Of a DNA stretch of 50,723 nt, positions 438 through 6,641 are shown one piece after another. The DNA is from Halopiger djelfimassiliensis. GTDB taxonomy: Archaea > Halobacteriota > Halobacteria > Halobacteriales > Natrialbaceae. The stretch's first letter is position 1, and every line of letters starts with the position of its first letter. The stretch spans positions 854,684 to 905,406 of the forward strand of contig NZ_HG315684.1 in the NCBI RefSeq assembly GCF_000455365.1. Reading direction: 5' to 3'. The notes below the pieces were generated by a model. That model searched no databases. It was not told where the DNA came from and saw only the letters and a program-made list of their open reading frames with translations. The translations under genes and the position numbers were made by a program.

Positions 438-3101
438 TCACTCGAGGATGACGACCGCCGACTCGGTTTCGATCATCTCGCCCTCGCCGGAGTAGGTTCG
501 CTCGTACTCGACCTCGAAGAGGTCGGCCGCGAGTTCCTCGCCGGCGACCCGGAGAACCCCGGCGTCGCGGTCGAGTTCGTAGTCACCGCTTTCGATGCCC
601 GCGTCGATATCGCCGACTTTCGAGCCGAACTTCGGTCCGAGCGTCGAGTAATCGAGATCGATCGAGGCGATTTCGGTCGTCACCTCGGGCTCGTCCTCGA
701 GCACCGTCAGCTCCTGAACGTGCATCACGTTCCGGATCGCCCCTTCGAAGCCCTCGATGGGGCCGTAGACCGACACCGACTCGAGGTCAGCGTTCAGCGG
801 CAACTGGTTCTCGCTCTTGTAGCGTCGCAGCGCCGAGATGACCTCCATGGCGGTTTCGCCGGCCTCGAGATCGGCCTCGTACCCCTGCGGAGTGGGCCAG
901 TCGCGGGTGTGGATACTGCTGTCCTCGAGATCGGCACCGTCGTCAGTGTAGACGGCCTGCCAGATTTCCTCCGTCGCGTGGGGCAGGAACGGGGCCCACA
1001 ACTCGAGGAAGGTTCGGTGGGCGGTCCGCAAGGCGTACTGTGTCGAGGGGTTGTCCTCGCGTCCCTTCGCGATCTCGAGGTAGTCGTCGCAGAAGGTGTT
1101 CCAGAAGAAGGTTCGCAGGCGGTCGCGGGCCTTCGCGAACTCGTAGTCCTCGAGTTGGGCGGTCAACTCCTCGATGGCGTCGTCGAGTTCGGCCAGCAGC
1201 CAGCGGTCGATCGCCTCGAGCTCGTCGGGCTTCTCGGGATCGCGCGGTGCGAGCGTATCGACGAGTTTCGAGGCGTTCCAGAGTTTGCGCAGGAGCTTCT
1301 CGCCGGCCCGGAGATCCTTCTCCTGATACGGGAAGTCGTCGCCGACGGCGGCGCTTGCGGCCCAGAATCGAACCGCGTCGACGGGGTAGTCCGCGAGCAC
1401 CTCGTCGGGGGCGACGATGTTGCCCTTCGATTTGGACATCTTCTCCCGGTTCTCGTCCAGCACGTGGCCGTTGATCATCGTCGCGTCGAACGGCACCTCG
1501 CCGGTGTGTTCGTAACACTTGACGACGGTGTGGAACAGCCAGAACGAGATGATGTCGTGGCCCTGCGGACGCAGGTCGAAAGGATACAGTTCCGGCTTCT
1601 CCATCCGGAACGTCTCGGCGTCGGCGTCCCAGTCCCAGCCGGCGTTGATCAGCGGCGTCAGCGAGGAGGTCGCCCACGTATCGAAGACGTCGTCCTCGGG
1701 GACGAACTCGTCGCCGCCACACTCGGGACAGCTATCGACCGGCGGATCGTCGCTCAGGGGGTCGACCGGCAGGTCCTCCTTTGCGGCCACGATTTCGTGA
1801 TCGCAGTCCCCACAGTACCAGACCGGGAACGGAATGCCCGAGTCGCGCTGGCGGGAGATCAGCCAGTCCCACTCGAGGCCCTCGATCCAGTGCTTATAGC
1901 GAGTAAACATCTTCTCGGGGTACCAGTCCATCTCGCGGCCGGCCTCGAGATACTCGTCTTTGTGGTCGAGCATCTCGACGTACCACTGCTTGGAGACCCG
2001 GAACTCGACGGGCGTCTCGCAGCGCTCGTGGACCTGCACCGTGTGGGAGATCTCCCAGCGGTCCCGCAGGTACCCTTCAGCGTCCAGATCCTCGACGATG
2101 GCCTCGCGGGCGTCCTCGGTAGACAGCCCTTCGTAGTCGCCGGCGAGGTCGGTCATCGTCGCGGACTCGTCGATGGCGACGCGCAGCGGCAGGTCGTGAG
2201 CCTGATACCACTCGATGTCCTTCTGGTCGCCGAAGGTACAGCACATGACGATCCCGCTGCCTTTCTCCATGTCGACGCGCTCGTCCGCGATGATCGGCAC
2301 CTCGTGGCCGAAGATCGGGATGCGAGCGGTTTCGCCGACGAGATCCTGATTCGCCTCGTCGTCGGGGTGGACGAAGACCGAGACGCAGGCGGGGATGAGT
2401 TCGGGGCGCGTCGTTGAGATGACGAACTCGTCGCGGGGTGTGTCGTCACCGACCAGTTCGAACGCGATGTCGTTGAAATGCGAACCGCGCTCGTCGTCCT
2501 CCATCTCGACCTGCGAGATGGCCGTTTCGCAGTCGGGACACCAGATCGCCGGCGCTTTCTTTCGGTACTCCCGGCCCTTCTCGTAGAGATCGAGGAACGA
2601 AAGCTGGGAGATGCGCTGGACGCGGGGTTCGATCGTCTTGTAGGTGTTGTTCCAGTCGATCGAACACCCAAGCCCCTGCATCTTCTCCGTGAACTCGGCC
2701 TCGTACTCCTGACAGACCTCGCGACAGAGCTGTTGGAACTCGCGGCGCTCGTAGTCCTGGTGGCGGATATCCAGCTCCTTTTCGGTCAGTCGTTCGCTTG
2801 CGATCCCGTTGTCGTCGTAGCCGAACGGAAAGAGGACCGCACCGTCGTGCATTCGCTGGAACCGCGCGGCGAAGTCCTGTAGCGTGTGGCCGTAGAGATG
2901 GCCCATGTGCAGACTCCCCGAGACCGTCGGCGGCGGCGTATCGATAGCGTAGACGGTGTTCGGGTCGCGTTCCGGATCGCTTTCGTAGGCGTAGACGTCC
3001 TCGTCGACCCACCGCTGTTGCCAGCGGGATTCGACCGTCTCCGGCTCGTAGTCGCCCTCGAGGCTCGGTTCGTCGGTCTGTTCGGGCGCGTCCATACTCA
3101 T
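438..3101 (-). CDS. valS: Valyl-tRNA synthetase
   Basis: Class I aminoacyl-tRNA synthetase that charges tRNA-Val in the cytoplasm. The HIGH signature is HMGH at residues 65-68 after PPPTVSGSL. The KMSKS loop is intact at residues 554-558 (NREKMSKSKGN). Three Cys pairs (CPDC, CGDC, CPEC) mark zinc-binding knuckles in the editing/catalytic region, as in other archaeal ValRS. The frame stays open upstream, but I place the start at ATG 3101 because GGTGAG lies just before it at normal Shine-Dalgarno spacing, giving 887 residues, the usual family length. The roughly 230 bases upstream are probably a leader plus promoter. Confidence 0.97.
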   Translation of the reverse strand: MSMDAPEQTDEPSLEGDYEPETVESRWQQRWVDEDVYAYESDPERDPNTVYAIDTPPPTVSGSLHMGHLYGHTLQDFAARFQRMHDGAVLFPFGYDDNGIASERLTEKELDIRHQDYERREFQQLCREVCQEYEAEFTEKMQGLGCSIDWNNTYKTIEPRVQRISQLSFLDLYEKGREYRKKAPAIWCPDCETAISQVEMEDDERGSHFNDIAFELVGDDTPRDEFVISTTRPELIPACVSVFVHPDDEANQDLVGETARIPIFGHEVPIIADERVDMEKGSGIVMCCTFGDQKDIEWYQAHDLPLRVAIDESATMTDLAGDYEGLSTEDAREAIVEDLDAEGYLRDRWEISHTVQVHERCETPVEFRVSKQWYVEMLDHKDEYLEAGREMDWYPEKMFTRYKHWIEGLEWDWLISRQRDSGIPFPVWYCGDCDHEIVAAKEDLPVDPLSDDPPVDSCPECGGDEFVPEDDVFDTWATSSLTPLINAGWDWDADAETFRMEKPELYPFDLRPQGHDIISFWLFHTVVKCYEHTGEVPFDATMINGHVLDENREKMSKSKGNIVAPDEVLADYPVDAVRFWAASAAVGDDFPYQEKDLRAGEKLLRKLWNASKLVDTLAPRDPEKPDELEAIDRWLLAELDDAIEELTAQLEDYEFAKARDRLRTFFWNTFCDDYLEIAKGREDNPSTQYALRTAHRTFLELWAPFLPHATEEIWQAVYTDDGADLEDSSIHTRDWPTPQGYEADLEAGETAMEVISALRRYKSENQLPLNADLESVSVYGPIEGFEGAIRNVMHVQELTVLEDEPEVTTEIASIDLDYSTLGPKFGSKVGDIDAGIESGDYELDRDAGVLRVAGEELAADLFEVEYERTYSGEGEMIETESAVVILE

Positions 3102-3382
3102 GCTCTCACCGCCCGCCGCGGGCGTCGTCGATACGTCGTCGAAACGTGCAGTTGGCGCTGATCCATAGTCGTCGTTGTGCTGTGAATGCTGGTCGGCGAC
3201 AATACATCCGTCGAAACGGGGCGGGAAATGCGGGGCTACGAGGCCCCTACGAAAACGGCTGCAGCCGGGACCGCGACGGACTGGCTCATACCCTGAAGTT
3301 CGGATGGGGATCGTGTTAGATGTTTCGCGTCCGAGACGATACACGGATCACCGGGACTACCCGAACGCACGTCGACGGCACG

Positions 3383-3388
3383 AAAAAA
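3383..3388 (-). terminator. T-run terminator after the small peptide gene
   Basis: On the minus strand a run of six T follows the peptide stop codon by about 24 bases. Short T-runs are the usual archaeal termination signal. It would end the peptide transcript before valS begins, making the peptide a separate short transcription unit. Confidence 0.45.
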
Positions 3389-3411
3389 GGGACCGAGTTA
3401 CGCGGGCGAGA

Positions 3412-3534
3412 TTAGGAGCACTTTTCAGGACACTCGCCGGTTGCCAGGGTCGTGATCGAGTCGAGCGTTGCCGCGTTCGACCGTTCTTCGAGGTCCTCCA
3501 CGAAGTGGACCGGATCGTCGGTTTTGTCGGACAT
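3412..3534 (-). CDS. Candidate RiPP precursor peptide, 40 aa, C-terminal CPEKC
   Basis: A 40-residue frame running ATG to TAA. It starts MSDKTDDPVHFVEDLEERSN and ends TLATGECPEKCS. The first half is acidic with an amphipathic stretch (VHFVEDLEE), like leader peptides bound by RRE domains. The last ten residues hold two Cys (C35, C39) plus Glu, Lys, Thr and Ser side chains suited to ring or crosslink formation. Codon third positions are mostly C/G, as in expressed genes of this genome. A TATA-like box at 22-27 bases upstream implies a leaderless mRNA, and a T-run follows. It is divergent from an ATP-grasp gene and an RRE-M50 protease gene, which is the main reason to call it a precursor. Alternative: an unrelated small Cys-containing protein. 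Confidence 0.62.
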   Translation of the reverse strand: MSDKTDDPVHFVEDLEERSNAATLDSITTLATGECPEKCS

Positions 3535-3555
3535 TGCAAGCGATACTATGGGGGC

Positions 3556-3561
3556 AATAAA
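3556..3561 (-). promoter_or_regulatory. TATA-like box of the peptide gene
   Basis: On the minus strand TTTATT lies at -27 to -22 from the ATG at 3534, the spacing expected of a leaderless haloarchaeal transcript. Confidence 0.5.
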
Positions 3562-3758
3562 CAGTAAGCTTTCACACTCAAATCATAGGTTATGTACAAA
3601 AGATCCATATAGAATTTGATGGGCATGCATGTAAATGGCTATCACTACTATGTGTGTACATGGATGTCACTATCCGGTTCGGAACCCGTTCGCGACGGTC
3701 CACGCGATCGAACCGGCATGACGGTCCGAGACGCCGAACGTGTCCATACACAACACAG

Positions 3759-3766
3759 TTTTATTA
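3759..3766 (+). promoter_or_regulatory. TATA-like box of the ATP-grasp/M50 operon
   Basis: TTTTATTA ends 23 bases before the ATG at 3790, again implying a leaderless or near-leaderless mRNA. The interval 3535-3789 is a bidirectional promoter region, AT-rich compared with its surroundings. I see no further convincing gene in it. Confidence 0.5.
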
Positions 3767-3789
3767 CCTAATATAACACACTGGTAACT

Positions 3790-4743
3790 ATGGGTGTCCT
3801 GTTACTCGGCCCCGGTTCGGATCCGCAACTCACCGCCGTCGAGAACGAACTCGAGCAGCGAAGCGTCGAGACAACGGTCTGGGATGCGGACGAGTGGCCC
3901 GACGACGGCTCGCTCACCGTTCGACAGGACGGTGCGACGACGCGGCTGGCCGTCGGCGACACCGCGGTCGATCCGTCCTCGATTCACACCGTCTATCTGC
4001 GGAACTTCGCGCTCAACCCCCGACTGCCCGACTACCGGGATCGACTCGAGGAACGACCGTTCGCGCTCATAAACCAGCTCCGGGAGTATCAGGCCGTCGT
4101 CGAGTCGATGCTCGCACACCTTGCCGACCGCGGCGTCAGGCTGGTCAACCCGCTGGACACGCTGGATATTCACCGACAAAAACCGTGGCAGCTGTCGGTC
4201 CTCGGGGGGGCCGGGATCCCGATCCCGAACACCCTTACGACGACCGATCCGGATGCAGTTCGTGCGTTCGCGGATCGCGTCGACGAGGTCGTCTACAAAC
4301 CGGTCGGCGGTGGCGGCTACGCCAGCCTCCTGACCGACGACGACCTGACCGACGACCGACTCGAGTTGCTCTCGAACTCCCCGGTCCAGTTTCAGGAACG
4401 GATCGAGGGCGAGGATATCCGCCTGTTCGTCGTCGGCGGAGAGGTCGTCGCCGCCGCACGGATCGTCTCCGACGAACTGGACTACCGGACGGAAGACCAC
4501 GACGTCGAACGGATCGATCCCGCGTCCCTCGAGACCGACCTCGAACGGGCCGCGGTCGAGACGGCGGCCGCGCTCGACCTGTCGTTTGCCGGCGTCGACA
4601 TCGTCGCCGGCGCGGATCGGTTCTGCGTCCTCGAGGCCAACCCGTCGCCGATGTTCGCGGCGTTCGACGACCTCGCCGGAACCGATGTTGCGGGTGCGCT
4701 TGCGGAATTTCTGGCGACACCTGACACCGGCGACCGAGCATGA
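3790..4743 (+). CDS. ATP-grasp ligase of the MvdD/RimK type, probable peptide-modifying enzyme
   Basis: A 317-residue ATP-grasp protein with the layout of graspetide (microviridin-type) maturases. An N-terminal pre-ATP-grasp domain includes VYLRNFALNP near residue 70. LVNPLDTLDIHRQKPWQLSV and GIPIPNTLTTTDP follow. The nucleotide-binding Lys is K170 in VVYKPVGGGG, and QERIEGEDIRLFVVGG comes next. The metal-binding end is FCVLEANPSPMFAAFD, with E282 and N284. Such enzymes form amide or ester bonds from an activated carboxylate. It overlaps the M50 gene by 4 bases (ATGA) and is divergent from the 40-aa peptide, so that peptide is the likely substrate. Alternative: a RimK-like ligase acting on a protein or small metabolite. 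Confidence 0.75.
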   Translation: MGVLLLGPGSDPQLTAVENELEQRSVETTVWDADEWPDDGSLTVRQDGATTRLAVGDTAVDPSSIHTVYLRNFALNPRLPDYRDRLEERPFALINQLREYQAVVESMLAHLADRGVRLVNPLDTLDIHRQKPWQLSVLGGAGIPIPNTLTTTDPDAVRAFADRVDEVVYKPVGGGGYASLLTDDDLTDDRLELLSNSPVQFQERIEGEDIRLFVVGGEVVAAARIVSDELDYRTEDHDVERIDPASLETDLERAAVETAAALDLSFAGVDIVAGADRFCVLEANPSPMFAAFDDLAGTDVAGALAEFLATPDTGDRA

Positions 4744-5660
4744 CCAACGCATCGACGGCCGACGAGTCCGGCGTCGACGAACTGCTCCGTGGCGAGTTCG
4801 GCTTCACCTGGGGTGAAACCGACGGAACGACGTGGCTTCGCAACGACGACGGCGACTACAAGCGGCTCGACCCGTCGTTTTTCGACCGGTTGCGCGAGCT
4901 GGCTCACTCCGAGTGTGAACCGGCGTCGGTCGACCCGCGGGTCCGACAAACGATCGCACTCCTCGCCGACGAAGGCTACCTGCGACGTGGCGGCGAGATC
5001 ACGCACCACGAGACGCCGTCCGACATCAGACTGTGGCCTCGAGTCGGAGCGTTCGCGGCGATGGTCGCGCTCTGGCTGGCGTGTCTCGCGATCCGGCGGG
5101 CCGAACTCCGGCGCCTGCCGTCCGAACTCCCGTTCGGGCTGGAGTTTGCAGTACTCGTGTTGCCGATTTTACTCGCCTCGACGGCGATCCACGAACTCGG
5201 ACACTACACCGCGAGCCGGCGGTACTTCACGCCGACGATCAGGTTCGGATGGCTGAACAAGATCATTCCGGCCGTCATTACGCGCACCACCGACGCGTGG
5301 GCATGTCCGCGCAACGCCCGGATCTGGATCAGTCTCGCCGGCCCGTTCGTCGACGCCCTCGTCGCGGCGACCTTCGCGGCGGCGTTCGTCGCCGCTCCCG
5401 ATCGGCACGTGCTCGGGTTTCTGGCGCTGTTGATCGGCGCGCGGATGCTGTTCGTCCTCAACCCGCTCATCGAGGGAGACGGTTACTGGGTCGTCGTGGA
5501 CGCGTTCGGGCTGCACAACCTCCGAAGCAGGGGCTTCCGGGATCTCAAACGAGCAACCCCGTCCGGTCCGGCCGCGTACGCGCTCGCAGTCGTGGTGTTT
5601 ACCACTGGATTCGCTGCCCTCAACCTGTATGTCATCACCTCCGCCGTCGGCATCATCTGA
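4740..5660 (+). CDS. Membrane M50 zinc protease with N-terminal PqqD/RRE-like domain
   Basis: 306 residues. Residues 1-88 are soluble and read like a small winged-helix PqqD/RRE domain: WLRNDDGDYKRLDP, helix, then VRQTIALLADEGYLRRGG. The rest is a multi-pass membrane domain. The zinc motif HELGH is at 151-155, and the third-ligand motif NPLIEGDGYW lies about 90 residues later. This NPL..DGYW form is the one seen in peptide-processing M50 enzymes of RiPP clusters. It overlaps the ATP-grasp gene by ATGA, so the two are co-translated. Inferred role: bind the modified precursor and cut off its leader at the membrane. No dedicated exporter gene is nearby. The RRE-like call is by eye. Confidence 0.72.
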   Translation: MTNASTADESGVDELLRGEFGFTWGETDGTTWLRNDDGDYKRLDPSFFDRLRELAHSECEPASVDPRVRQTIALLADEGYLRRGGEITHHETPSDIRLWPRVGAFAAMVALWLACLAIRRAELRRLPSELPFGLEFAVLVLPILLASTAIHELGHYTASRRYFTPTIRFGWLNKIIPAVITRTTDAWACPRNARIWISLAGPFVDALVAATFAAAFVAAPDRHVLGFLALLIGARMLFVLNPLIEGDGYWVVVDAFGLHNLRSRGFRDLKRATPSGPAAYALAVVVFTTGFAALNLYVITSAVGII

Positions 5661-5696
5661 CGCAGCGCCGCCTGCGGCCGTGTTCGCCGGCGCTCG

Positions 5697-6641
5697 TCAG
5701 TCATCGGTCCCGTCGTCCGAGTGTGCTCTGACCCACAGTTCGCCGATCCGGGAGAGCCGCGTTCGGTAGGACTTCCCGTGCTCTTCGCGTTCGATGTAGC
5801 CTTTCCCGCCGGGACCGAGTCGGTCGACGTTGTAGATGACCTTCGATCGGAAGCTGTCGGTGTACTCTTCGTTTAGCTCGCGGGCGAGCGATTCGGCGAG
5901 TTCCGAGACCGAATCGAACTCCCCGTCCTCCCCGAGTTTATAGAGGATGAGTTCCTCGAAGGGTTTGACGTTCGAGAAGGTCGCAACCGGTAGTTCGACG
6001 ATGTGGTCTCCGCCGATCTCCTTCGCGCCGATCGTCGTCCCACGTTCGTCGAACTCGTCGAGGAGGTCCCGGGCGCTCTCGAGCCGGTCGGCGATCCGGT
6101 CGGCGGCGATTCCCTCCGCGTCCCCCTCGGCCCCGTCCGTCCGGGCGGCTCGTCGCTCGCGGTCCGCGAGATCCTCGAGCAGCGCGATCTGTTCGCGCAG
6201 TTCCTCGGCGAGTTCCGTCTCGAGGTACTTCTCCGGGGCGGTGTAGTAGGTGTGGATGTGCTCGCGATCCTCCTGTCGTTCGACCATCAGCGAGTGGGCG
6301 GCGTTGGCGAACGCGAAGCTAACCGTCCGGGGCATCGCGGCGACGTTGACCCAGACCTCGTTGCCCCGGTCGAGTTCCGCGGTGATGAGTTCGTAGGCCT
6401 GTTCGAAGGCGGCGTCGTAGTCGTAGACGTCTTCGAGCACGAACCGTTCGGTTTCGGCACCGAGCAGGCTCCGGAAGTCGGTCTCGAGCTTTTCCGAGAG
6501 GTGCCGGGAGTACTCGACGTTCGCCTCGCTGCCGACGGCCCCCTCGAGCAGGATGACGCTGTCGACGTCGATCTGATCGCGCACCAGCGGCGCGATCAGC
6601 CGGTCGTAGTCGAACCCGACCGGAACGATGTGCGTTTGCAT
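5697..6641 (-). CDS. HFX_2341/DUF6293-family transcriptional regulator with CARF-like N-terminus
   Basis: 314 residues from MQTHIVPVGFDYDRLIAPL. The N-terminal half looks like a Rossmann-type CARF-like ligand domain: strand, then helix; a conserved WVNVAAMPRTVSFAFANAAH segment; then HTYYTAPEKYLE. A coiled, charged linker follows, and the C-terminus is winged-helix-like (LGPGGKGYIEREEHGKSYRTRLSRIGELWV). The start at 6641 is supported by a box about 23-31 bases upstream; the frame extends further, but without that signal. It faces the M50 gene tail-to-tail with 36 bases between. No CRISPR-cas gene is in the window. Confidence 0.7.
   Translation of the reverse strand: MQTHIVPVGFDYDRLIAPLVRDQIDVDSVILLEGAVGSEANVEYSRHLSEKLETDFRSLLGAETERFVLEDVYDYDAAFEQAYELITAELDRGNEVWVNVAAMPRTVSFAFANAAHSLMVERQEDREHIHTYYTAPEKYLETELAEELREQIALLEDLADRERRAARTDGAEGDAEGIAADRIADRLESARDLLDEFDERGTTIGAKEIGGDHIVELPVATFSNVKPFEELILYKLGEDGEFDSVSELAESLARELNEEYTDSFRSKVIYNVDRLGPGGKGYIEREEHGKSYRTRLSRIGELWVRAHSDDGTDD

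Follow-up and report, generated by a model that had tools for sequence, protein, structure and literature searches.

A haloarchaeal gene cassette for a probable plesiocin-like graspetide with an RRE-fused M50 membrane protease

Locus anatomy and genomic setting

The window, i.e. the whole stretch of 50,723 nucleotides that was analysed, is one part of a haloarchaeal assembly of 3.78 Mb and contains a compact cassette of three genes. The precursor gene (3412..3534, reverse strand) encodes the 40-residue peptide MSDKTDDPVHFVEDLEERSNAATLDSITTLATGECPEKCS. Divergent from it and separated by 255 bp lies the gene of a 317-residue PsnB-like ATP-grasp ligase, a putative graspetide synthetase (3790..4743, forward strand). 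This is followed by the gene of a 306-residue M50 intramembrane metalloprotease of the site-2-protease type (4740..5660, forward strand), whose N-terminal part, about residues 20-84 (4797..4991, forward strand), is a predicted RRE-like domain. The two enzyme genes share 4 bp (ATGA). The original prediction, made from the DNA letters of the window, had given the positions of all three frames and the four-base overlap correctly. It had also assigned a promoter to the 40-residue frame, and a TATA-like element, TTTATT, indeed precedes the precursor ATG by about 27 nt (3556..3561, reverse strand). A candidate TATA-like element, TTTTATTA (3759..3766, forward strand), precedes the ATP-grasp ATG by about 31 nt, as judged from the sequence and from comparison with relatives.

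The cassette is flanked by valS and by a gene for an HFX_2341-family regulator. Two genomes (G004 and G241) have some 360 bp and no cassette between these two genes, in another (G398) the cassette is found on the opposite side of HFX_2341, and in other families it is placed elsewhere. The cassette is thus an accessory insertion between valS and the regulator gene, with both empty and decayed sites known; its membership in the valS or HFX_2341 operons was considered and rejected. The same cassette is present in Natronolimnohabitans sp. A-GB9. Two remnants were seen: a decayed precursor beside valS with the enzymes absent (G202, L111 near 5681-5752, reverse strand), and an M50 gene reduced to its last 63 residues (G377, L035:6902-7090). 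Judging from these, loss of the cassette seems to be piecemeal.

Conservation of the small frame

Related loci were gathered by searching relatives for the M50 protein and then for the ATP-grasp, and each of them has both enzymes side by side; a single-protein scan of the genome contigs had given one locus only. ATP-grasp/M50 pairs without a conserved peptide had been named in the original prediction as the finding that would speak against it; in this comparison a homologous precursor stands beside all of the loci (24 out of 24, in 22 haloarchaeal genomes). Six-frame translation of the window gave 972 segments, and among these a profile built from the precursors minus the window's own clade had a single significant match, at 3415..3582 on the reverse strand (E 4e-7; next 1.9). 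Codon changes in the frame are mostly silent, with a dN of 0.12 against a dS of 1.74 and 1.92 in comparison to two relatives, and the precursor dN/dS of about 0.06-0.23 indicates purifying selection. In whole genomes, another profile (A1) matched frames at ATP-grasp/M50 loci that are outside the profile itself, namely those of G360 (E 1.9e-8), G161 C12 (2.3e-6) and both G435 loci (1.5e-8 and 1.2e-5). A chance ORF is ruled out by the leave-clade-out match, the dN/dS values and the conservation at every locus.

TATA-like elements are found 27-38 nt upstream of the ATG in 19 of the 24 precursors, as opposed to 3.8 expected from shuffled upstream sequence. This spacing fits leaderless archaeal transcripts, and the element at 3556..3561 suggests that the precursor transcript of the window is leaderless. 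The precursor has no match in Pfam or NCBIfam and no convincing sequence match among PDB chains, so that its leader is not demonstrably plesiocin-like.

The association with the enzymes was also apparent in 391 sampled genomes of the class, where all 13 genomes with a full-length M50 protein also hold the precursor (Fisher 2e-23); this count is partly circular since the precursor profile was built from these loci, which does not apply to the leave-out results. The only other precursor match in this sample is a decayed remnant beside valS. The precursor is divergent in some genomes and convergent in others, so its link with the enzymes is more than mere neighbourhood.

Leader and core of the precursor

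The window precursor consists of the leader MSDKTDDPVHFVEDLEERSN and a core region of about AATLDSITTLATGECPEKCS, the boundary being approximate. What had been described as an acidic leader-like half is in fact a conserved leader, with the common motif HFVEDLEER-[ST]N and the wider form H[FY][VI]ExL...ER-N. An example from a close relative is MSQSNDPIHFVEDLEERSNATTLGDVTTLATGECPEKCW, and further precursors among the 24 loci are MTAENNDGVHFVEDLEERSNASPMVTTLAIGEEGGVTTLACAETGC, MTEDVHFIEELEERENATPIGVTTMAMGEEVGDLSLPLI and MKHFVEDLNESDVEDVENRTNTVVSTPITWFGG.

The core stretch of the window is TTLATGECPE. Cores of the type TTxxxxE are present in 13 of the 24 precursors and in all 12 members of the window's ATP-grasp clade; seven clade members have TTxxxxEE, while TTxxxxEC-PE stands in the window and in the four relatives closest to it. 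The wider clade shows TTxxxxEE plus C-x-ETGC. There are one or two core units per precursor, i.e. repeats number at most two, and the C-termini within the clade differ (S, W, C, I). We take TTxxxxEE to be the plesiocin motif, a repeat reportedly described by Lee et al. in 2017. The CPEKC tail, to which the original prediction drew attention, is present in the window and is kept only in its closest relatives. The alignment which that prediction proposed, for a conserved leader and a CPxxC core, bears out the leader, but the motif that would carry the chemistry is TTxxxxE rather than CPxxC. In known graspetides the nucleophiles stand before the acids (PMC7823629), and this order fits links from T28/T29 to E34/E37.

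The ATP-grasp ligase

The closest solved relative of the ATP-grasp protein is 7drm (phmmer 2e-44; profile 4.8e-72, next 2.8e-27), which we take to be PsnB, the bacterial plesiocin macrocyclase. The alignment spans the whole length of the protein; the solved ATP-grasps MdnB, MdnC and CdnC were also matched, and RimK-type ligases are among its relatives. The best NCBIfam model was TIGR04187 (E 1.1e-31), with 110 bits, below the cut-off of 350. The metal-binding residues D270, E282 and N284 are invariant, and the host genome has one enzyme of this kind (442 bits; next 78). A tree built from 27 ATP-grasps places the window protein in a clade of 12 (support 100/100) that coincides with the TTxxxxE cores. 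By its sequence the enzyme belongs with the graspetide-type macrocyclases, nearest to PsnB; calling it MvdD/RimK-like, as had been done, was right although imprecise.

The RRE-M50 protease

The HExxH (151-155) and NPxxxGDG (241-248) motifs of the M50 protein, the latter with the Asp that serves as third ligand, are placed within TM helices and are invariant or nearly so. In the AF2 model (pLDDT 88) the full protein is of the site-2-protease fold, with RseP, SpoIVFB and MjS2P aligned at Z 9.1-11.5 (VIA-align). PF02163 scored 23.7 bits, just under its cut-off of 27.2; good family matches were limited to two M50 models, those of daptides and epipeptides, and neither reached its cut-off (NF041824 at 2.8e-20). 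Weak M50 matches in other genomes (E about 1e-6) were judged to be another M50 subfamily.

The N-terminal domain, modelled alone (AF2, pLDDT 82), shows the winged-helix arrangement of leader-binding domains, a three-stranded sheet with helices. Its best match is 6jx3, a leader-bound lasso B1 RRE (Z 6.1, 67 residues, 2.6 A). The lasso B1 RREs 6jx3, 5v1u and 5v1v together gave Z 4.7-6.1, and the sactisynthase RRE 5wgg and PqqD 5sxy gave 4.4-4.9. A Z of 5-6 is in the range of common arrangements, as unrelated carbamoyltransferase chains in the same list reached about 5.3; several of the top matches are leader-bound RREs. These matches come from VIA-align, since Foldseek alone returned no significant PDB match for the M50 or the N-terminal-domain model. 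Pfam PqqD had no match in the M50-family members (14 out of 14); single profiles often overlook RREs. The RRE that had been claimed for this protein is therefore not visible to the PqqD profile, but structure alignment speaks for it, and with Z values as modest as these we regard the domain as RRE-like, supported rather than proven.

RREs bind leader peptides. M50 proteases mature other RiPPs such as epipeptides and pearlins; for the latter the enzymes are TglG and TmoG, which work on the C-terminal end of the scaffold (PMC10885120). Leader removal at the membrane is consequently the simplest role for the fused protein, and the protease probably recognises and cuts off the front part of the precursor.

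Proposed pathway

The observed gene anatomy, homology, conservation and co-occurrence point to a haloarchaeal system for a plesiocin-like graspetide, i.e. an omega-ester RiPP, with a dedicated RRE-M50 leader protease. We consider this reading likely, even though both enzymes fall under the curated NCBIfam cut-offs; with a precursor at each of the 24 loci and a PsnB-like enzyme, the graspetide-type interpretation of the original prediction appears largely right.

The 40-residue precursor would be transcribed from its own promoter, and the ATP-grasp would bind the conserved leader (HFVEDLEER-SN) and phosphorylate Glu side chains of the core, so that Thr-to-Glu side-chain ester rings form. One or two such esters are predicted in TTLATGECPEKCS. 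Within TTLATGE-CPE an inner ring T29-E34 is likely and an outer ring T28-E37 is possible, which should lower the mass by 18 or 36 Da. There is doubt about the second ring because the second acceptor of TTxxxxEE is a Cys in the window, and we give the two-ring connectivity an even chance. The leader would then be bound by the RRE at the N-terminus of the M50 protein and removed by the membrane-embedded metalloprotease, perhaps when the peptide is released across the membrane or in the course of that release. After release the two Cys residues of CPEKC may pair as a disulfide. The product may serve as a protease inhibitor, an inter-strain antagonist or a signal, the usual roles of graspetides and other RiPPs.

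Acid-free cores and alternative readings

Some related loci have cores without Asp or Glu after the leader: STPITWFGG (L027:7389-7490), TPITWFGG (L147:6234-6350, where acids stand before the core), TGGCIAYC (L030:9625-9723), GNVYFGA (L070:6220-6330) and TCPLSC (L072:5060-5152). The order of a donor Thr, Ser or Lys before an acceptor Asp or Glu is seen in the window core and is absent from four acid-free cores of related loci. Acid-free cores occur in the sister clade of the window's ATP-grasps, and side-chain esters of the standard kind cannot account for them. TPITWFGG recurs in L027 and L147 despite differing leader-core junctions, which suggests that this C-terminal stretch is functional. 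We speculate, with rather low confidence, that the sister-clade enzyme links the side chain of a Thr, Ser or Cys with the carboxylate at the peptide's C-terminus, giving C-terminal lactones or thiolactones, with the RRE-S2P protein as dedicated leader peptidase. To our knowledge, such a linkage has no description among graspetides. It would be a new graspetide linkage type and an archaeal counterpart to thiolactone signal peptides, and the acid-free cores as such would probe the reach of ATP-grasp macrocyclase chemistry.

These cores also lend some weight to the idea that at the window locus itself the ATP-grasp acts on the C-terminus of the peptide instead of between side chains, activating its carboxylate for lactone or thiolactone closure or for RimK-like addition of an amino acid, with the M50 protein trimming or releasing the product. 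RimK-type relatives of the enzyme and the C-terminal action of TglG and TmoG (PMC10885120) point in the same direction. However, the TTxxxxE core is universal in the window's clade, the enzyme is nearest to PsnB and the C-termini of the clade vary, which makes this reading unlikely. We find it quite improbable, too, that the peptide is a regulatory or signalling substrate, either pheromone-like or controlling HFX_2341, in which intramembrane proteolysis is the point and the ATP-grasp only tags the peptide. M50/S2P proteases commonly have regulatory roles, and the HFX_2341-family regulator adjoins the cassette in several family-f1 genomes. Yet 36 of 41 relatives have this regulator, with or without the cassette, loci of other families have no HFX_2341 nearby, and a fixed leader with variable cores resembles a product rather than a fixed signal. 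Finally, the two enzymes might work on another substrate, the small frame being no gene; it is short and absent from every family library. Its presence at 24 of 24 loci, the leave-clade-out E-value of 4e-7, a dN/dS well below 1 and the TATA element leave this reading practically no chance, and the comparative data have in practice already refuted it.

Comparison with known systems

The plesiocin-like graspetide system proposed here shares with plesiocin and the other group 2 graspetides (PsnA2, PsnB) a single PsnB-like ATP-grasp and probably a related core, TTxxxxEC in the window and TTxxxxEE in its relatives. It differs in being archaeal, and in having one or two core units as opposed to the four repeats of plesiocin. 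The cassette has an RRE-M50 protein, whereas group 2 co-occurs with an NHLM-type peptidase transporter (PMC13097080); none turned up in the genes next to the cassette that were examined. TIGR04187 synthetases (rosaritide MirB, GRASP_SAV_5884) are alike in that this is the best NCBIfam model for the window enzyme, but the score of the latter is far from the cut-off (110 versus 350 bits). The rosaritide partner MirC has a weakly RRE-like N-domain (PMC13097080), which recalls the N-terminal RRE-like domain of the window M50 protein. The genes adjoining the cassette include neither a PpiC-like partner nor a PCAT.

The M50 proteins of epipeptide (EpeP/YydH-LiaK) and daptide clusters are likewise intramembrane proteases of RiPP clusters, and it is their models that matched the M50 domain well. 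However, their clusters rely on radical SAM chemistry or oxidative decarboxylation rather than an ATP-grasp, and for these M50 proteins no N-terminal RRE is reported in the literature examined, while that of the window is fused to an RRE-like domain. Among solved structures the lasso B1 and TbiB1 RREs come nearest to the N-terminal domain, and the lasso leader peptidase also requires an RRE (PMC10885120), but there the RRE serves a cysteine protease, and in the cassette its fusion partner is a site-2-type metalloprotease. The predicted graspetide group 36 of Thermoprotea is archaeal too; it belongs to another archaeal lineage and has a segregation-like protein as partner, with no M50 mentioned (PMC13097080).

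Literature searches, which covered main texts, gave no haloarchaeal graspetide and no description of an RRE-M50 graspetide protease. The main text of a 2022 graspetide survey names neither haloarchaea nor M50 proteins. The main text of a 2026 survey has one archaeal group only (Thermoprotea), and for several of its groups it mentions proteases in the neighbourhood that are not specified further; the lineage of the window may stand in its supplements. Haloarchaeal RiPPs described so far are lanthipeptides (PMC10105419, PMC12144867), and the two archaeal RiPP papers on these contain no text on ATP-grasp enzymes or graspetides. For most graspetides the protease that removes the leader has yet to be named (PMC8939145, PMC12291112). 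Knowledge of archaeal RiPPs is scarce, and the cassette, as a minimal set of precursor, cyclase and RRE-fused membrane protease, allows leader recognition by two enzymes and proteolytic release to be tested directly in cultivable halophiles.

Variant loci

The three-gene form recognised in the original prediction is the usual one, but the M50 protein is not obligatory, as four related ATP-grasp loci have no intact M50 gene. In L147 and L148 an ATP-grasp and a leader-bearing precursor stand without this type of M50, and in L149 the ATP-grasp, likewise M50-less, is accompanied by a small frame of similar kind. In the fourth (L150:5293-5805) an RRE-membrane protein beside the ATP-grasp has lost the HExxH stretch, and is either decayed or an RRE-only partner. 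The ATP-grasp and precursor-like frames of L148:5904-7050 and L149:6308-7400 (the latter frames being MNHFIEELDDEPDHTKDANHYTDDDPHIG and MDHYINDLNDEDEHRENIQHTCDGACPT, respectively) are located inside an A-type ATP synthase operon, after the gene of the second alpha/beta-type subunit (PF00006, 474 aa) and directly ahead of subunit D; the genes of L148 and the subunit D of L149 were assigned directly, the remaining ones of L149 by their likeness. In L147 the ATP-grasp locus is preceded by genes for a CBS-domain M50 protease and an IS605 OrfB/TnpB-like protein (2555-3739 and 3746-5113).

Three loci (L033, L073 and L074) have two tandem, divergent ATP-grasp genes and one precursor with a REQTxxTS...DDK-like core, which recalls the two-ligase clusters of microviridins. 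In G397 (L068:3993-4029) the ATP-grasp gene is apparently frameshifted in its first codons, either by a sequencing error or as a pseudogene.
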